A DNA stretch of 64,000 nt from Fredinandcohnia onubensis (GTDB lineage Bacteria; Bacillota; Bacilli; Bacillales; Bacillaceae_L). Positions 25,925 to 34,205 of the stretch are shown piece after piece. The notes under the pieces were generated by a model. The model ran no database searches and was not told the DNA's origin. It saw only the letters and a list, made by a program, of their open reading frames with translations. A program made the translations under genes and the position numbers. Location: assembly GCF_031181385.1 (NCBI RefSeq), contig NZ_JAPSKV010000010.1, positions 1 through 64,000 of the forward strand. The letters run 5' to 3'. The number at the start of each line of letters is the position of its first letter. Within the stretch, counting starts at the first letter, position 1.

Positions 25925-27262
25925 TTAAAAGGAAATATATTGACGTGGGTTCACTGCGTTTGAGTGTCCTCCACTGTATTGAGTTGGACTATAGGGTCCG
26001 TTATATATTTCAAAATGAAGATGCGGACCAGTCGAGTCACCTGTATTCCCCATGTAGCCAATCAAATCTCCTTGTTCCACTCGGTCGTATTGACCAACGA
26101 AACGTTCCTGTAAGTGCGCATATACGGTGGTCATTTGACGTCCATTGATATAGTGGGTGATCATGATGACATTACCGTAGCTACTTTCAAGGCGTGAGCG
26201 TGTAACCGTACCGCCTGCTGACGCATAAATTGGAATGTTTCCTGGTCGTCCACCTTTTCCGATATCAATCCCGAAATGCATTTTTCCCCAGCGCATTCCA
26301 AATTCAGATGTGACTCGGCCTGTTGTTGGATTAATAAACCCGCTATTGTTCACAGCAGCTGGAGGTGCTGGTGGTAGTGGAGGCAGTGTAGTACCAGCCT
26401 CTTCGGCCTTTTTCCGTTCCTCTTCAGCCTTTTTCCGTTCCTCTTCGGCTTTTCTTCGTTGCTCTTCAAGTTCCTTTTGCCTTTGATTCCACGCATTGAT
26501 TTCCATTTGAATTGCCTTTTCCTGCGCAGCTAATAATTCTCCAACATCCTCTAACACATGGAGCTCTTCATGCATTTTCTGCTCCTGGGCCTCTAATTGC
26601 TTCATCACTTTATTTTGTTCTTGAATTTGTGCTTGGAGCTGAACCTCTAACCGATCAAGTTCTTTTAATTGCTCTTCCTGCTGTGCAAGTAGGGTCTTTA
26701 CCTCTGCTTTATTTTCTTCAAGTAATTTAATATCAGCTTCATGTTCTTTCATAATTTCGCGGTCAGCTTGTACAAATGTAGATACCGCACTAACTCGATT
26801 GATAAAGTCATTAAAACTTTTTGCACCGAGTAACACATCTATATAACTAACCACTCCACCACTCTGCTGAAGACTACGCATTCGCTCCTTGATAAGCTCG
26901 TCCCGTTTTTGAATCCGTTCCTCGAGCACTTTCATTTCCGCCTCAAGACGCGCAATTTCTTCTTTCGTTTCTTGAATCTTTGCTTTTTCACTCTCAATTT
27001 TGCCTCTCGTTTCACTTACAGCAAAATCAAGTCTTTTAATTTCCTGCTCGACACTAACCTGTTGTTGTTTGACCTCATTAAGAGCCCCCTCCTTTTGGGA
27101 GATTTCAGACTCTAACTCTGTCTTTTTTTCCTGAACTTCTTGCTTTTCATTTTCTAGCTCTTCATTCTTTTGAATCGCTAATACAGTATTAGGCATAGAT
27201 GTCAATAAACTTCCAAGTCCTATTGATATACCCATTCCAATCATAAGAAGTTTTCTTTTCAA
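25925..27262 (-). CDS. Secreted coiled-coil M23 peptidoglycan endopeptidase (EnvC/NlpD-like)
   Basis: A 445-residue exported protein. A signal peptide (residues 1-29) is followed by a long coiled coil rich in Glu, Lys and Gln (about 33-290), with a tandem EEERKKA repeat near 270-290 and a Pro-rich hinge. The C-terminal LytM/M23 domain (about 310-445) keeps the zinc ligands in HFGIDIG and HLHFE, so it should be an active endopeptidase. Similar in plan to CwlO/EnvC-type hydrolases that are often switched by FtsEX. TTG start after AAGGAGATG; monocistronic. Confidence 0.9.
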   Translation of the reverse strand: MKRKLLMIGMGISIGLGSLLTSMPNTVLAIQKNEELENEKQEVQEKKTELESEISQKEGALNEVKQQQVSVEQEIKRLDFAVSETRGKIESEKAKIQETKEEIARLEAEMKVLEERIQKRDELIKERMRSLQQSGGVVSYIDVLLGAKSFNDFINRVSAVSTFVQADREIMKEHEADIKLLEENKAEVKTLLAQQEEQLKELDRLEVQLQAQIQEQNKVMKQLEAQEQKMHEELHVLEDVGELLAAQEKAIQMEINAWNQRQKELEEQRRKAEEERKKAEEERKKAEEAGTTLPPLPPAPPAAVNNSGFINPTTGRVTSEFGMRWGKMHFGIDIGKGGRPGNIPIYASAGGTVTRSRLESSYGNVIMITHYINGRQMTTVYAHLQERFVGQYDRVEQGDLIGYMGNTGDSTGPHLHFEIYNGPYSPTQYSGGHSNAVNPRQYISF

Positions 27263-27594: not shown

Positions 27595-28302
27595 TTATTT
27601 TAAACGCTTGCCTGAACGTAAAATTGATTTTTCAACAAGTACATTCATCGCATCAACGCTACTTTTAACAGCCTCATCACTTAATTTAATACAGGACAAT
27701 TCCGTACAAGCCAATATCACGATTTTACAATTCTCTTTTTCAACAAGATGCTTGATTAACTGCTCAAGTTCACTAGAATCAACATCAAGATCACTTTTTA
27801 CATTGTTATAAATAATATCCATGACCTTTTCTTGTAAGCTATCATTTGGGGCCAATAGCTCAAGGTTATATTTTTTACAAACATCTGCATAGATTCCACT
27901 GCGAATTGTACCGTTAGTTGCAAGAATTCCGACCTTTGTACCTTCACCATGCCGATTATGAATTTCTTTAATTGTTTCTTCGACCATGTTGATGATAGGG
28001 ATATTCGTCAGCTTCTGAAGCTCATCGTAAAAATAATGAGATGTGTTACAAGGAATTGCAATATTAGCGACACCCGCTGCTTCTAGCAACTTGAAATCAT
28101 TTTTTACAGCATCTAAGAACGTCTCGCCTGTGTTTGTAAGGATTGCATTTGTCCGGTCTGGAAGGGTAGCATGATTAAGAATTATCATATTTAGATGGTC
28201 TTGGTCCTTATGCGCTTCTGTTTGGTTGACAATTTTATCAAAAAATACGGAAGTAGCCTTTGGACCCATGCCACCGATAACGCCTAAGATTTTTTGTTCC
28301 AT
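27595..28302 (-). CDS. Aspartate/glutamate racemase family protein
   Basis: A 235-residue cofactor-independent racemase. Both catalytic cysteines are in place, in AIPCNTSHYF (about residue 84) and LACTELSCIKL (about 196), and the N-terminus has the GVIGGMGP motif of the aspartate racemase branch rather than MurI. It would interconvert L- and D-aspartate. Last gene of a five-gene operon; upstream partners are a C39 peptidase, an asparagine synthetase, a MurE-like ligase and an ATP-grasp ligase, so a product containing D-aspartate or D-asparagine is a reasonable inference. Confidence 0.88.
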   Translation of the reverse strand: MEQKILGVIGGMGPKATSVFFDKIVNQTEAHKDQDHLNMIILNHATLPDRTNAILTNTGETFLDAVKNDFKLLEAAGVANIAIPCNTSHYFYDELQKLTNIPIINMVEETIKEIHNRHGEGTKVGILATNGTIRSGIYADVCKKYNLELLAPNDSLQEKVMDIIYNNVKSDLDVDSSELEQLIKHLVEKENCKIVILACTELSCIKLSDEAVKSSVDAMNVLVEKSILRSGKRLK

Positions 28303-28346
28303 GTTAACACCTAGTTTCGTTTTAAGAGGTTATTTAAACATATATT

Positions 28347-29132
28347 TTATTTAACGGTCATTGCATGACTCCCTAAGTCAACATAGCTCGCAAAAAACGC
28401 ATCTGCATCGTATGTGACTTGCCCTTGCAATGGGTTCATGACATGCACCTTATCACCTTCATAACCATTTAGAACAACGGCATGCAAGTTAGTAGGAGCA
28501 TTAAACTTTTTTTGTGTGTCATGAATATTCCAAGAATAATTAACCTTTTTCTTACTTAAGTCTAAAGTTACCCAAACCACCACAGGGTTCCCTTCTTCAA
28601 GCTCCATTATGATTTCCTCACGAGTACTTCCACTTAGGTCAACAGGTTCTAATTCAGCCCCTTCTTTCCCTAAATATGCATTCGCTGCTTGTACAATTGG
28701 AGGCGCATAAGAGAAGAATCCGCTCCATTCCCTCGGGTTTCCTGCATATGCCTTATTAGGATCTGGCCCATAGAGGACATTGTTGATCGTTGTAAAGGGC
28801 TGCTTCGGTAAATAATTATCAGCCATATCCACTTTCGAGACTCTATAACCGTAAAAATTTAACACGGAAGTAAGTGACGTAATTTCACAGCCATTTGGAA
28901 GCTCCGGTAATTGTAGAACCTTTTCAACTGGTATGAATACTTCTACTTTACCGTTTGATACCTCTCGATATGGATTCGTTTCCTGGGCATACACAGTTGT
29001 GAGCCCAGAAGTGATTCCGTTTGTCCCTGATATCAGACTTCTAGCAATGCCTTTAACCGTTTCAACATTCAACATTAAATAAACGACACAAACGAAATTC
29101 AAAAATAATAGTCCTCTTACTATTTTTTTCAC
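28347..29132 (-). CDS. Exported C39-family cysteine peptidase
   Basis: A 261-residue protein with an N-terminal signal or anchor helix (residues 4-24) and a C39_2 peptidase domain. The nucleophile cysteine is in LPELPNGCEITSL (near residue 80) and the histidine in NLHAVVLNGYEG near the C-terminus, in the family order. The start is GTG 29132, 8-9 bases after AAAGGGG; the frame upstream is open but lacks a ribosome site. It acts outside the membrane. In this operon it may process, attach or release the product of the two ligases; that is inference. Confidence 0.82.
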   Translation of the reverse strand: MKKIVRGLLFLNFVCVVYLMLNVETVKGIARSLISGTNGITSGLTTVYAQETNPYREVSNGKVEVFIPVEKVLQLPELPNGCEITSLTSVLNFYGYRVSKVDMADNYLPKQPFTTINNVLYGPDPNKAYAGNPREWSGFFSYAPPIVQAANAYLGKEGAELEPVDLSGSTREEIIMELEEGNPVVVWVTLDLSKKKVNYSWNIHDTQKKFNAPTNLHAVVLNGYEGDKVHVMNPLQGQVTYDADAFFASYVDLGSHAMTVK

Positions 29133-29209
29133 TTCTATCTGCCCCTTTACTCTGTAAGACAATCTTTAGACAATTACTAGAAACCATGTATATGTGAAAA
29201 AAACAGACT

Positions 29210-31057
29210 TTATAACTCAATAAAGAATTTCTTGTACCATACAAGGAATACATAGACCGTATAGATGTATCTTGCGTAGTTATGTCTTCCATGGAAATGG
29301 TCATCAAGATATTTAACGAGCTCTTCTGTATGGAAGAATTCTTTCGCAATATCGGATTCAAACATTTCTTTTACAATGTTGTAGTATTTCTCTTCACGGA
29401 GCCAGTGTCTCATTGGAACTGGAAATCCAACCTTTTCTCGATTTGACCATTCCTCTGGTAGCACTTTTTTCGATGCTGCACGAAGAGCATATTTTGTATC
29501 CATTTGATTCACACGTAAATTACTTGGGATGTGTGATGCCATGGACATCACTTCCTTATCTAAGAACGGAACCCGTAATTCAATCGAGTGAGCCATACTC
29601 ATTTTGTCTGCTTTTAGAAGGATATCCCCTGGCAACCAAAGTTTGAGGTCAAGATACTGCATTTTAGTAACATCGTCTTTTCCCTTTACATCATCATACA
29701 CTTTTTTCGTAATACTTTGAATAGAAGGGCCTGTTTGATATTCCTCTTTTAAGACTTTACGAGCATCTTCTTCCTCGAATACTTTTGCCTGACCGATGAA
29801 CTTTTCCTCTACCGGTTGACCACCTTTTACAAGAAAGTTGGTGATTGTATTTTTGGGAAGAGCACCACTTACAGCGGCTATCGCACGACGAATCCCAAAT
29901 GGAATCTTTTCGTATTTTTCTAGCTTCGCAGACTTCTGGTACCAAACATAGCCTCCGAAGATCTCATCTGCCCCTTCACCAGAAAGGACAACTGTTACAT
30001 GCTCACTTGCTAATTTTGATAAAAAGTATAACGGAACAGAGGATAAATTTGATTGCGGTTCATCCATGTGATACTGGATTGTAGGTAGCATTTCAAATGC
30101 CTGATCTGCCGTCATCAGTTCTTTATAGTTCTCTATTTCAAGTATGTCGGATAAATCCTTAGCCAAATTGGTTTCATTGAAAATCCCTTCATAATCCTGG
30201 AATCCAACAGAAAACGTTTTGTTTGGCATTAATAAAGCCGTGATATAACTAGAGTCAACCCCACCGGATAAAAAAGAACCAACTTTTACATCACTGATCT
30301 TGTGATAGTTAACCGATTCTTTTAATGTATTATTAATTTCTTCAATATAGTGGTCAAGTCCTTTATTATCTGCATCAAAATTAACATCCCAATATGGCTT
30401 TATTTCAAGGTTTCCTTTTTTATAAATCATGTAATGACCAGGCTTTAATTTATAGACACCTTTGAAGAAGGTCTCATCAAGCACTGAATATTGGAAAGTT
30501 AAATATGGTTTTATCGCATCTTTATTTAACTCTTTCTTAAATGCTGGCTGCTTTAAAAATGCTTTGATTTCAGAGCCGAAAATAAGTGAGTTGTCTGTTG
30601 TATTTTGTGAATAGTATAAAGGCTTAATTCCAAAGAAGTCACGCGCTAAAAACATGGATTCATCGTTTTTATCCCAAATTGCAAATGCAAACATCCCGCG
30701 TACCTTTTGTAAAAGGTCTACTCCATATTCTTCATAAGCATGGACAACAACTTCGCTGTCTGCATCACTTTTGAAAATATGACCTTTTTGAATGAGGTCA
30801 TCGCGAATTTCTTGATAGTTGTAGATTTCGCCATTGAAGACTAATACACAACTCCCATCTTCATTGAACATTGGCTGACTTCCTTCTTCAGATAAGTCAA
30901 TGATACTTAGGCGACGAAAGCCTAATGTTGCATGCTCGTCCGAATAGTGATTACCACTATCTGGACCTCTATGAATTATTGTATCCATCATTTCATTTAT
31001 TACTTGTACTTTATCTATTTCAAGCTTTGAATCAGCAAAACCAACGAAGCCACACAT
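29210..31057 (-). CDS. asnB: Asparagine synthetase (glutamine-hydrolysing)
   Basis: A 615-residue AsnB-type enzyme. The N-terminal glutaminase domain starts MCGFVGF with Cys2 as nucleophile, so the start is set at 31057, four codons inside the longest frame. The synthetase domain has the pyrophosphate loop FLSGGVDSSYI near residue 257 and VVLSGEGADEIFGGY. Size and sequence are closest to B. subtilis AsnO (YisO). It may make asparagine, but AsnB relatives also amidate peptidoglycan side chains, and its place between a MurE-like ligase and a D-aspartate-type racemase makes a dedicated amidation role plausible. Confidence 0.92.
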   Translation of the reverse strand: MCGFVGFADSKLEIDKVQVINEMMDTIIHRGPDSGNHYSDEHATLGFRRLSIIDLSEEGSQPMFNEDGSCVLVFNGEIYNYQEIRDDLIQKGHIFKSDADSEVVVHAYEEYGVDLLQKVRGMFAFAIWDKNDESMFLARDFFGIKPLYYSQNTTDNSLIFGSEIKAFLKQPAFKKELNKDAIKPYLTFQYSVLDETFFKGVYKLKPGHYMIYKKGNLEIKPYWDVNFDADNKGLDHYIEEINNTLKESVNYHKISDVKVGSFLSGGVDSSYITALLMPNKTFSVGFQDYEGIFNETNLAKDLSDILEIENYKELMTADQAFEMLPTIQYHMDEPQSNLSSVPLYFLSKLASEHVTVVLSGEGADEIFGGYVWYQKSAKLEKYEKIPFGIRRAIAAVSGALPKNTITNFLVKGGQPVEEKFIGQAKVFEEEDARKVLKEEYQTGPSIQSITKKVYDDVKGKDDVTKMQYLDLKLWLPGDILLKADKMSMAHSIELRVPFLDKEVMSMASHIPSNLRVNQMDTKYALRAASKKVLPEEWSNREKVGFPVPMRHWLREEKYYNIVKEMFESDIAKEFFHTEELVKYLDDHFHGRHNYARYIYTVYVFLVWYKKFFIEL

Positions 31058-31112
31058 AGTTTTAATCACCTTTACATCTTAGATTTTTACAGATCACTTT
31101 TGCCTTGTTGTT

Positions 31113-32693
31113 TTATCCATCACTACGGCCTAACATTTGACGTTGTTCTTTTGTTAATCCGGCAACACGGTTGCGTAATGGGAAGAATAATTTTTCACGT
31201 GATACATTAGGTCTCATTTTTGCGATTTGCTGTAGGGCAACACCTGCACCATAGTCCATGCCTTGTGCACCTGCAAGGATTACAACATCCCCCGGCTCTG
31301 CATGGGTTAAGGCTTGTGCAATAGCGTCATCAAGCTCATCATAAAGAGCCACCTGAACTCCCGCCTCTGCCATGACTTCCTTGAACACGGCTGTTTCTTC
31401 ATCAGTTACGTAGTCCTTTGAAGTGACATGGGAGACGCTCTTTGTCGCAATAATTTCGTTGAACCCTAATGTTTTTGCCCACTTGACGATAGCCTCTGCA
31501 TTTTCACGGTTAACCGTCGGACCTCGCTCTCCACGTATCGCATACACTAAATGAAGATCTTTGTACTCCATATATTTCAATGTTTGAAGAGTCACATCAA
31601 TATTCCCTGCATTCGCAAAGTGGTCATCAATGATTTTAATATCATCTTCAAAAATAAACTCAAAGCGACGTTCCACTCCACCAAAGTTTTTTAACCCTTT
31701 TTGAATGGAGGATACCGGCACTCCGCAAAGAAGTCCAATTGTAATAGCCACCATCGCATTATACACAGAGTGCAAACCAGGAACAGATAGTTCGATCTCG
31801 AATTCGCCTGGTTCTATCTTGGTTTCATAGCAAGAAAAAGGCTTTAAAATCTCAATTGTAAACTTCGCTCTACCAGTGGTCAAATCCAAATTTTTGCAGG
31901 CAATATGACCGTCTTTGCTGTCTAATCCAAACGTGACAACCTGTGCCTTTGTTTGGTCAATTAAGGAAGTAGAATACTCATCATCCAGATTTAAAATGGC
32001 AATGCTTTTTTCACTTGCATGGCGAATTAAACCTGATTTCACTTCAAAATATTTTTCAAAAGAACCGTGGGAATCAATGTGCTCACGACTGATATTATTT
32101 AGAGTGACAATATCATAATCTACCGCTTCAACACGATGTGTTTCTAGTGCGTTTGATGAAACCTCCATTGTCACATGAGATACATCTTTTTCTACCATTT
32201 GACCCAAGTAGAACTGTAAATCAAGGGATTCAGGAGTTGTTAGTTCTGAAGGAATCGCAAAATCGTCAATCTTAATGGATACTGTACCAATAAGACCTGT
32301 TCTGTAACCCTCTTCCTCTAGAATGGCATTCGTCATAAACGAAGTTGTGGTTTTCCCGTTCGTTGCTGTAATCCCAATCATATTCATTTTCTCAGATGGC
32401 TTCCCATAAAATTCAGCTGCAAGTCGAGCTAATGAAATACGGCTGTTTTTTACCACGATTTGAGGAATCTCTAATCCTTCTTGCACATCCTCAACAACAC
32501 AAGCCACTGCACCATTGGAAATCGCCTGCGAGAGGTATTTATGGCCATCTGTTTTATAGCCTTTTATACATACGAAAAGATGTCCGTCCTTTACCTTTCC
32601 AGAATGGTATGATAGTCCACTAATTTCAATATCCTTATCATCAATGGTTTTTTGAACCTCAATTGCTGTTAGAAGCTCATGTAATTTAACCAT
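31113..32693 (-). CDS. MurE-like Mur ligase of unknown substrate
   Basis: A 526-residue Mur ligase. ATP loop GITATNGKTTTSF (about residue 110), TTPESLDLQ, EVSSNALETHRV and NNISREHIDSHGS follow the MurE pattern. Key MurE features are altered: the UDP-binding DSR is replaced by YHSGKV, the C-terminal DYAH motif reads DDHFANAGN, and the DNPR motif that selects diaminopimelate is absent. It is therefore unlikely to be the housekeeping MurE and probably joins a different amino acid or acceptor. Sixteen bases follow the ATP-grasp gene; an extra C-terminal tail of about 30 residues is present. Confidence 0.85.
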   Translation of the reverse strand: MVKLHELLTAIEVQKTIDDKDIEISGLSYHSGKVKDGHLFVCIKGYKTDGHKYLSQAISNGAVACVVEDVQEGLEIPQIVVKNSRISLARLAAEFYGKPSEKMNMIGITATNGKTTTSFMTNAILEEEGYRTGLIGTVSIKIDDFAIPSELTTPESLDLQFYLGQMVEKDVSHVTMEVSSNALETHRVEAVDYDIVTLNNISREHIDSHGSFEKYFEVKSGLIRHASEKSIAILNLDDEYSTSLIDQTKAQVVTFGLDSKDGHIACKNLDLTTGRAKFTIEILKPFSCYETKIEPGEFEIELSVPGLHSVYNAMVAITIGLLCGVPVSSIQKGLKNFGGVERRFEFIFEDDIKIIDDHFANAGNIDVTLQTLKYMEYKDLHLVYAIRGERGPTVNRENAEAIVKWAKTLGFNEIIATKSVSHVTSKDYVTDEETAVFKEVMAEAGVQVALYDELDDAIAQALTHAEPGDVVILAGAQGMDYGAGVALQQIAKMRPNVSREKLFFPLRNRVAGLTKEQRQMLGRSDG

Positions 32694-32709
32694 TTTGTTC
32701 CCTCTTTTC

Positions 32710-33885
32710 TTAACGTTTCTTTGATTTTTTCCCAGATATCATTTTTACAAATGAGATAAACGGTTTTGGGTCGTTCCAATCCCAAATTGCGTAGGCCTTT
32801 GGTTTAAAATAAGACCTAATAACTTCACCAAGTGAAAGCTGACCTGTTTTTAGATAGCCCTTCACAGCATAAAAATCCTCATAGGCATACCAAAATACTT
32901 GATTCGTATCATGCTTAAGGCCTTTTGGAGGAAGTGGATTACCCGTAAGTTCTCGATATGTAATGTACGGGAAGTTAAAACCTACCTTATTTAATAACAC
33001 ATTAAAATTGGTAATCCTCACATTTAATTCAATTAAATAATATTGCCCAGTTTCGGCATCCTTTTTAAACTCAATTTCCACAAACCCTTTAAAGCCAATC
33101 GCCTCTAAAAAGCGTGAACCTATTTCATATAACTCAGGAACATAGCGTTGCCCTGTGTACACAGAAGCCCCGAAATTGATCGGATATTGGCGGAATTTTT
33201 GAGCTGTCACCCAATGAGTAACCTTCGCGTCCTGATTCAAATATGCATCAAAGGTATACATATGATCATCAAAACCAGGAATGATTCGCTGAACAATTAC
33301 CTCTTGTTTCGCTTCCTTTGCCTTTTGGAGAGCTTCGTCTAACTCCTCGCGATTATTGACGATAAATAACTTTTTACGGAAAATCGAAACAAAGGTTGGT
33401 GAATCGGTTGGCTTTACAACGCATGGATATTTGATCGCTTCCTCGATTTTTTCATAAAAATTCTCTTCATTTAAACGAACCGTCTCAGGAACAAGCATTC
33501 CATGTTCAGTTGCTAACTGATGAAGGAGTTGTTTATCCATTGTTTTCGTATAAAGACCCTGCTCCGTTTGCGGGATTAAATAGTACTCTTTTAATTCATT
33601 TAAATATTGGTCAATGACCTCCACATAGTTGTCATGACAAGGGATAAGAACAGGCTTTGCTGTTTGCTTTCTGGCATATTCTTTTAAAAAAGCAATAAAG
33701 CCTTCTGTATCTTTTCTGTAATGTGGTGCAATAATATGCTCCGTACAGTATTTTGAATCTGCACCATACGTATTTTCATATGAGTAATCCACTGCAACCG
33801 TATGTATGCCTTCTCTCCCTAAACACCTTATCGTGCTTAACCCTATATAGTAATTGCAACCTAAAATGACTGCTTTATTATTCAT
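32710..33885 (-). CDS. ATP-grasp carboxylate-amine ligase
   Basis: A 391-residue ATP-grasp enzyme. Visible elements are KPVLIPCHDNYVEVI in the N-terminal domain, the ATP-binding lysine of YPCVVKPTDSPTF, EVIVQRIIPGFDDHM, and the metal site GFVEIEFKKD with YYLIELNVRITNFN. It resembles the group of predicted carboxylate-amine ligases that also contains the D-aspartate ligase of enterococci; I rely on memory for this and did not align. First gene of a five-gene operon that ends with an aspartate racemase, the same pairing found around the enterococcal D-aspartate ligase. Confidence 0.8.
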   Translation of the reverse strand: MNNKAVILGCNYYIGLSTIRCLGREGIHTVAVDYSYENTYGADSKYCTEHIIAPHYRKDTEGFIAFLKEYARKQTAKPVLIPCHDNYVEVIDQYLNELKEYYLIPQTEQGLYTKTMDKQLLHQLATEHGMLVPETVRLNEENFYEKIEEAIKYPCVVKPTDSPTFVSIFRKKLFIVNNREELDEALQKAKEAKQEVIVQRIIPGFDDHMYTFDAYLNQDAKVTHWVTAQKFRQYPINFGASVYTGQRYVPELYEIGSRFLEAIGFKGFVEIEFKKDAETGQYYLIELNVRITNFNVLLNKVGFNFPYITYRELTGNPLPPKGLKHDTNQVFWYAYEDFYAVKGYLKTGQLSLGEVIRSYFKPKAYAIWDWNDPKPFISFVKMISGKKSKKR

Positions 33886-34070
33886 TTTTTATCGATCTCC
33901 CTAGTATCTATATCAAAAAATACGCTCTACTGAATAAGTAGACACGAATTGCTATATACGTTTTTTCGACAATTATCACATTCTCCATATTGACACAGAA
34001 TAAAGGGTCTTTCAAGATGAAATACACCTTATTCCCGCTTGTTATCAAGCTGTAACAATTGAAATGTTTA

Positions 34071-34169
34071 AGGCGCCCGTCTATCGGCGACAAGCATAAG
34101 ACGAGCGCTGACAGAAGGTGCTTTTTACCTTCCGAAGCGATTGGCTTATGACTCGAGCCGATGGCGCCT
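34071..34169. repeat. Dispersed hairpin repeat R2, copy 1
   Basis: A 99-bp element starting AGGCGCC and ending GGCGCCT. Nested arms pair: ATCGGC/GCCGAT, CATAAG/CTTATG and AAGGT/ACCTT around a central GCTTTTT. It matches 42417-42516 along its whole length. Any reading frame across it is only a by-product. Confidence 0.88.
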
Positions 34170-34205
34170 GAACTAGACAACACAAATGAAAAAAAGAAAC
34201 AAAAA

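Follow-up and report, generated by a model that had tools for sequence, protein, structure and literature searches.

In Lactococcus lactis, D-aspartate (D-Asp) cross-bridges are made with the ATP-grasp ligase AslA, the racemase RacD is encoded in the same operon, and AsnH later amidates the D-Asp, which reduces sensitivity to lysozyme and nisin (PMC4155827, in the part of the article available to us). Here we describe a comparable five-gene operon in the window, by which we mean the whole 64,000-nucleotide stretch of the Fredinandcohnia onubensis contig NZ_JAPSKV010000010.1 (positions 1 to 64,000). The operon encodes an ATP-grasp ligase, a MurE-like Mur ligase, a glutamine-hydrolysing asparagine synthetase homologue (AsnB), a C39-like peptidase and an aspartate racemase family protein. 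It is one version of a cassette found across Bacilli and Clostridia; spore-forming soil and salt bacteria have this small gene set in common, and it most likely attaches D-Asp to a spare version of the wall building block.

An earlier note on this DNA had read the genes as a single minus-strand operon with short gaps and one terminator, and had suggested that they make a D-Asp or D-asparagine (D-Asn) peptide, either on a peptidoglycan precursor or as a free polymer. The operon is borne out by five intact open reading frames (ORFs), gaps of 16, 55, 77 and 44 base pairs (bp) in operon order and a hairpin after the last gene, and the five family calls by Pfam or NCBIfam matches. The starts of AsnB (ATG 31057, MCGFVGF) and C39 (GTG 29132) were set where their relatives begin. 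The ATP-grasp protein is 99% identical to that of F. onubensis and 95% to that of Bacillus timonensis. Compared with B. timonensis, the ratio of nonsynonymous to synonymous substitution rates (dN/dS) of the five genes is 0.027-0.086, at a dS of 0.8-1.2, so all five are under strong purifying constraint.

Relatives were gathered by a scan of one genome per species, in which 197 stretches encode a relative of the ATP-grasp protein. The best 80, at 65-99% identity, were kept, and same-strand genes within 7 kilobases (kb) downstream of the ATP-grasp gene were counted as neighbours; L079, L094 and L139, with less than 5 kb downstream, were retained. A Mur ligase is present in 78/80 loci, a racemase in 75 and both in 74, a co-occurrence of the core that exceeds chance, with AsnB in 27 and C39 in 24. 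The C39 gene is always accompanied by AsnB and always lies between AsnB and the racemase (24/24). The counts thus define the unit as a three-gene core (ATP-grasp, Mur ligase, racemase) with an optional AsnB-C39 insert. The earlier note had treated all five genes as the unit and had staked its reading on their being conserved together: the neighbourhoods uphold this for the core, and the full five-gene set is one version, in 24 of the 80 loci. Hosts belong to Bacillaceae, Paenibacillaceae and Clostridia, and the genes flanking the cassette differ from lineage to lineage.

A second sample, of 396 genomes from the order, has window-type ATP-grasp proteins (at least 65% identity) in 24 genomes, one with a second copy at 58%; a clear identity gap divides them from a group at 23-32%. 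The C39 protein (E ≤ 1e-40) occurs in 13 of these genomes, 11 of which have the window-type ATP-grasp. Of nine genomes from the window's own genus, seven carry all five genes, G007 has the three-gene core only, and G008 is without the ligase. Among viral contigs, one stretch matched a pattern, and none encodes an ATP-grasp relative.

In MurE, the DNPR motif reads diaminopimelate (DAP). The window Mur ligase matches the MurE subfamily model TIGR01085 over its whole length (290 bits against a cut-off of 257.3) and, as the earlier note had stated, lacks DNPR, DSR and DYAH: TSKDYV (KD) stands at the DNPR position, which sets it outside the DAP-type MurEs, DYAH is replaced by DDHFANAGN, AGKGHE by AGAQGMD and the N-terminal DSR by HSGK. 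This form, type A, occupies the Mur slot in 46 loci and a second form, type B, in 33, with both at one locus. The two are about 30% identical and form separate clades (support 100/99 for type A, 100/100 for type B). Among called ORFs, whose numbers differ by one from the locus counts, DNPR is found in 0/45 type A and 0/34 type B sequences. All type B sequences read DNPK (34/34), three of them carrying DNPT as well; type A reads KD in 42/45 and ND in one, besides one mis-hit and one sequence unmatched by the pattern, and has DDHFANxGN for DYAH and G(C/A)QGMD for AGKGHE in 45/45. Type A nevertheless keeps the P-loop, TTPE, SS.A...R and the carbamate-position lysine in 23/23 (K219, S179-S180, R187), residues that we take to be the site of MurE for the dipeptide of UDP-N-acetylmuramic acid (UDP-MurNAc); its AlphaFold model has a mean predicted local distance difference test score of 89.7.

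The Mur slot is exchangeable, and is swapped even inside the window's genus: four of the seven five-gene genomes have type A and three have type B, and in the type B genomes the other four proteins are 83-93% identical to the window's. With two MurE clades at about 30% identity serving the same slot, the cassette would bear on what MurE specificity requires. The window genome (G000, 4.26 megabases), G009 and G007 each have exactly two MurEs (E ≤ 1e-60). In a wider survey of hosts (32 handles standing for 29 distinct genomes, with the same-genome pairs G215/G416, G021/G417 and G257/G407), the best-scoring MurE adjoins a spoVD homologue in 28/29 genomes and carries DNPR in 27/29, the exceptions to DNPR being Anaeromonas (DNSR) and Bacillus kwashiorkori, in which the search turned up the cassette copy alone. 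Bacillus kwashiorkori (L219/G416), whose single MurE is the cassette type B, was considered as a natural experiment and dropped, because the canonical mraY is also missing (one match, below cut-off) from its 80% complete assembly, which makes the case uninformative.

The Pfam models matched by the window ATP-grasp protein are Dala_Dala_lig_C (39 bits, threshold 24) and CPSase_L_D2 (24 bits, threshold 20); among NCBIfam models none passes its cut-off, and a naming model for D-aspartate ligase was looked for there and not found. Profile alignment with hhalign relates 25 window-type sequences to an AslA-like clade of 14 (probability 99.9, E 2e-32, 262 columns, 24% identity), the latter standing in for AslA by genus and gene context, not by characterised AslA sequences. 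On this comparison of sequences, the window protein has the ATP-grasp fold and is homologous to the AslA/Aslfm D-aspartate ligase family. A class-wide search (E ≤ 1e-12) gave ATP-grasp matches in 69/398 genomes, most at 23-32% identity. At 20 distant-clade loci chosen from the 69 matching genomes (L267 and L268 gave no match and count as misses), a racemase homologue lies near the ligase in 12, AsnB in 4 and C39 in 2, the two C39 proteins being 48-49% identical to the window's; at 15 loci of other ATP-grasp relatives (25-32%), neither racemase, AsnB nor C39 was found within 1.5 kb.

Distant-clade members named through a plasmid search are those of Latilactobacillus curvatus, where aspS, racemase and ligase stand in a row, Lactobacillus crispatus, where asnB adjoins the ligase, and Limosilactobacillus fermentum, where no such partner adjoins. 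The window AsnB is 46% identical to the L. crispatus asnB product beside the AslA-like gene, and the window racemase 36% identical to that of L. curvatus over 201 residues. Three Paenibacillus loci combine window-type AsnB (66%) and C39 (60-61%) with a distant-clade ligase on the opposite strand, beside a window-type core. Two further genomes have the AsnB-C39 pair without a window-type ATP-grasp: G162, with an AslA-like gene elsewhere, and G317, with a type B Mur ligase, a racemase and a small protein described below. The ATP-grasp and Mur positions thus look replaceable while their partners stay, which fits parts doing equivalent jobs. Sets of type B Mur ligase, racemase and small protein without a window-type ATP-grasp were seen at L330 (G047) and L331 (G317).

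The remaining three proteins keep their catalytic residues among relatives, as the earlier note had observed in the window for the AsnB cysteine and the two racemase cysteines. The AsnB homologue (TIGR01536, 538 bits; domains PF00733 and PF13537) keeps its catalytic cysteine in 34/34 aligned rows, with MCG within the first eight residues in 32/34. The racemase, four genes on from the ATP-grasp ligase in the same operon, matches TIGR00035 and PF01177 and keeps C85 and C199 in 74/74. The C39 protein (Peptidase_C39_2, PF13529; solved homologue 3erv) keeps its catalytic cysteine and histidine in 31/31 each, and a hydrophobic N-terminal segment was seen by eye. A few rows of these three alignments are second fetches of the same genome.

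A small conserved protein of 70-110 residues (FLxxSFxDGxxxRELRLSxEE ... WYEVxL, with a leucine-rich tail in longer copies) follows the racemase in 44/80 loci, with a more distant second copy in two of them; in Bacillus sp. V3B it forms an in-frame fusion with the racemase. None of the scanned copies has a Pfam or NCBIfam match above cut-off. The gene is absent from the window; the window genome has a relative on another contig (G000:C16:136826-137104; L328:7812-8111), where the 16 kb inspected contain no cassette genes, and G005 likewise has one without cassette genes within 15 kb. The exchangeable Mur slot, the optional AsnB and C39 and this frequent sixth gene go beyond the earlier note.

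We propose that the operon is probably a cytoplasmic side pathway of peptidoglycan synthesis, which would place a non-DAP diamino acid and D-Asp on wall precursors, the D-Asp being amidated where AsnB is present. The racemase would convert L-Asp to D-Asp. The MurE-like ligase would add a diamino acid other than meso-DAP to UDP-MurNAc-L-Ala-D-Glu, with L-ornithine (L-Orn) as the best guess for type A, and the ATP-grasp ligase would join D-Asp to the side amine of that diamino acid. The AsnB homologue, where present, would turn D-Asp into D-Asn; by analogy with L. lactis, lower sensitivity to lysozyme and nisin is a plausible benefit of this amidation. The C39 enzyme would act outside the membrane on the D-Asp- or D-Asn-bearing wall, perhaps as a bridge-specific hydrolase, and is a candidate hydrolase for such peptidoglycan. 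What the data show is the conserved gene association, the motif loss, the Mur exchange, the parallel in lactic acid bacteria and the presence of the cassette in a genus with an A4-beta wall; every substrate, the order of the steps and the role of C39 we infer.

That genus is Ornithinibacillus, which is separated from Oceanobacillus by its peptidoglycan, A4-beta as opposed to A1-gamma (meso-DAP), and by a fatty-acid ratio (PMC4062624, in the part available to us). The core with type A is present at all five named Ornithinibacillus loci (L119, L129, L130, L131, L135); the AsnB homologue upstream of it is only 36-39% identical and, in L119 and L131, lies behind an opposite-strand gene. We take the A4-beta type of Ornithinibacillus to be Orn-D-Asp, and Halobacillus is an Orn-D-Asp genus as well. 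In O. bavariensis the two MurEs (E ≤ 1e-60) are a DNPR copy in the spoVD-murF-mraY cluster and the type A ligase of the cassette. O. halotolerans, O. halophilus and Paucisalibacillus EB02 likewise have just these two. Additional orphan MurEs occur in O. californiensis and O. contaminans, and the two-MurE argument is therefore clean only for O. bavariensis and the three genomes that resemble it. If the growing wall of O. bavariensis has ornithine and not DAP, type A is the best candidate for its adder, and the DNPR copy would serve the spore. The orphan MurEs fetched (from Halobacillus, Paucisalibacillus and some Ornithinibacillus) have no racemase or ATP-grasp neighbours and are candidate alternative ornithine ligases in their own genomes; O. 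bavariensis is without any. Four stand-alone MurE paralogues from these genera (L210, L211, L213, L217) adjoin a heavy-metal ATPase-like gene, accompanied at three of the four by an ArsR-type regulator of that ATPase (both named by eye).

For the L-Orn-D-Asp (A4-beta) wall of Bacillaceae the cassette supplies candidate genes, and it may let bacteria described with one wall chemistry build a second. The prediction is that bacteria filed as DAP-type can make a second, D-Asp-bridged peptidoglycan which, if true, bears on wall taxonomy and on resistance to wall-cutting enzymes. A bolder generalization, which we advance only tentatively, is that in many spore-formers with a DAP-type MurE a complete, exchangeable cassette encodes a second peptidoglycan, one with a non-DAP diamino acid and a D-Asp/D-Asn bridge, and that this same cassette makes the Orn-D-Asp wall that is the main one in Ornithinibacillus and probably in Halobacillus; wall chemotype would then be a conditional, swappable module, with the third-residue Mur ligase exchangeable in place within one genus.

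Several observations weigh against the proposed side pathway. Loci L120 and L124 of Oceanobacillus, an A1-gamma genus, carry the ligase and racemase, L124 with type B, so the cassette cannot be equated outright with the main wall of vegetative cells; the window host itself has a spoVD-linked MurE with DNPR. For both reasons we regard the cassette as encoding an alternative precursor route or an additional one. The specificity motif of type A is unlike that of both Lys-type and DAP-type MurE, and the ornithine assignment accordingly draws on one genus-level wall description; for the window host (Fredinandcohnia), our literature search found no wall analysis. A 59-row tree of ATP-grasp proteins (excluding L265, which lacks its start, and with a program warning about long branches) puts the window clade W apart from the lactobacillar clade D with branch support 100/100, and the ligase is therefore not filed as AslA, though read as working like one. 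Among the 20 distant loci, eight are without a racemase near and seven without any partner. The core itself has exceptions: L116 is a lone ATP-grasp gene, the second copy of a strain that also has the complete locus L108; L120 has its racemase without a co-directional Mur, the Mur gene lying on the opposite strand; and four loci (L079, which is truncated, L099, L103 and L112) have ATP-grasp and Mur with no racemase in view. Halobacillus racemases are only 35-40% identical to the window's, and C39 homologues also stand alone, with second copies in G011 and G276 that have no cassette gene near.

A further difficulty concerns the amino acid. With CuyB, a cysteate-racemase model, the racemase likewise scores above cut-off (201 bits over 190), and Orn-D-Glu and Lys-D-Glu walls exist in Bacillales (PMC9781867, in the part available to us); the racemase and ATP-grasp ligase might then use another acidic amino acid, D-Glu or D-cysteate, in place of D-Asp. 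We regard this as unlikely, because, among solved structures, the racemase matches aspartate racemases best (1jfl, E 5.9e-41) and the AsnB-type amidation of the published parallel targets D-Asp (PMC4155827, same part).

It is quite improbable that the cassette modifies spore peptidoglycan alone (cortex or germ-cell wall) and not that of the growing cell. Such a role would suit the named genera among the 80 loci, which are presumably spore-forming lineages, and a two-wall arrangement has its precedent in Lysinibacillus sphaericus, with a Lys-D-Asp wall when growing and DAP in the cortex. The control regions argue otherwise. The operon has a sigma-A-like promoter, read by eye only (a simple promoter scan of the window did not list it), whose two hexamers are identical in 7/7 congeneric upstream sequences, the window counted; in Halobacillus a TAAAAT stretch resembling a -10 box is conserved, also by eye, in 7/7 sequences upstream of the cassette; and by eye no sporulation-type promoter was recognised. 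Moreover, the peptidoglycan types that divide Ornithinibacillus from Oceanobacillus are taken to be those of ordinary cells (PMC4062624, same part).

To a free, soluble or secreted D-Asp peptide or polymer, cyanophycin-like or a natural product processed by C39, we attach equally little weight: an ATP-grasp and a Mur ligase are indeed the domain pair of cyanophycin synthetase, and racemase and AsnB families are found in peptide natural-product clusters too, but the cyanophycin synthetase matches reach 94 and 29 bits against a cut-off of 850, the Mur ligase scores as a MurE, the cassette shows no recurrent exporter or tailoring family, and its AsnB and racemase partners correspond to those of the lactic acid bacterial wall pathway. 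The interpretation in the earlier note is hence partly supported: its peptidoglycan half is well supported by context (the core, the racD-aslA-asnH parallel and the Ornithinibacillus wall), and its free-polymer half is disfavoured by the retained nucleotide-dipeptide residues of MurE and by the lack of a recurring exporter or fused CphA-like gene.

The features of the operon and its surroundings are collected in Table 1. The inverted repeat upstream of the promoter is not significant alone, 45 of 100 shuffles having at least one match at one mismatch or fewer. Riboswitch control of the cassette was considered and rejected: an Rfam scan of seven of the 80 loci found no T-box or lysine riboswitch, and its nearest match, an S-adenosylmethionine (SAM) riboswitch, lies upstream in L082 on the opposite strand. 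Upstream of the promoter, the window, L072 and L074 have an insert of about 120 bp (window about 34065-34182, GGCGCC near its ends) that is missing from four other congeneric sequences and looks like a small element of mobile or palindromic kind; within the window, a 23-base stretch from near the start of the insert occurs only once. The gene directly downstream of the operon (25925-27262, minus strand) was named by eye as that of a coiled-coil M23/EnvC-like wall hydrolase, and nine Halobacillus loci have an FtsX-like gene (also by eye) and a homologue of this hydrolase after the core.

Table 1. Operon genes, control elements and the associated small protein (window coordinates unless a locus is named).
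Feature	Position	Strand	Proposed role or description	Basis
Five-gene operon	27595..33885	-	all five ORFs intact	
ATP-grasp ligase, 391 residues	33885-32710	-	first operon gene; proposed D-aspartate ligase	Pfam ATP-grasp models
MurE-like ligase type A, 526 residues	32693-31113	-	without DNPR; proposed adder of a non-DAP diamino acid (L-ornithine?)	TIGR01085
Glutamine-hydrolysing asparagine synthetase homologue (AsnB), 615 residues	31057-29210	-	proposed amidation of D-Asp to D-Asn	TIGR01536
C39-like peptidase, 261 residues	29132-28347	-	N-terminal hydrophobic segment; likely acting outside the membrane	PF13529
Aspartate racemase family protein, 235 residues	28302-27595	-	two catalytic Cys	TIGR00035 + PF01177
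Terminator-like hairpin (intrinsic terminator)	27548-27524	-	3' of racemase	sequence scan
Sigma-A-like promoter, TTGAAA-17-CAATAT	34015-33987	-		by-eye consensus match
Inverted repeat TTGTTA-N8-TAACAA	34039..34058		possible operator	directly upstream of promoter
Small protein (examples)	L082:16424-16747, L072:16442-16699, L075:15536-16504 and others			

A literature search by title and start of abstract, with most subscription journals not covered, found no description of this gene set, no MurE-bearing D-Asp operon and no genes for the Orn-D-Asp walls of Bacillaceae; MurE is not mentioned in the part of PMC3533761 available to us. Among described systems, cyanophycin synthetase shares the combination of an ATP-grasp with a Mur ligase, but holds both domains in one chain where the cassette has separate genes, keeps other partners, and has a model for which the window proteins score far below cut-off. 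MurE, the UDP-MurNAc-tripeptide synthetase, shares the over-cut-off match, the P-loop, TTPE, SS.A...R and the carbamate-position lysine; the window type A differs in having DNPR, DYAH and AGKGHE replaced and in forming a separate clade.

Another likeness, which is inferred, is to the Lysinibacillus-like family f49. Five of six of its genomes checked have two MurEs, one with DDPR and one with DNPR (DNAR in G476), and several have an AslA-like ATP-grasp near a racemase, AsnB or C39. Its DDPR MurE and its ATP-grasp each belong to a clade other than that of the cassette, and no MurE was seen in the 14-kb stretches fetched around the ligase.

A close counterpart is the racD-aslA operon with asnH of Lactococcus lactis, which likewise brings together a racemase, an ATP-grasp ligase and an asparagine synthetase homologue and has its match in the gene adjacency of lactobacilli. 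The window-type operon is set apart by an ATP-grasp ligase of a separate clade, by a host that retains a spoVD-linked DNPR MurE and by genes of its own: it brings a MurE-like ligase and often a C39 peptidase and the small protein.

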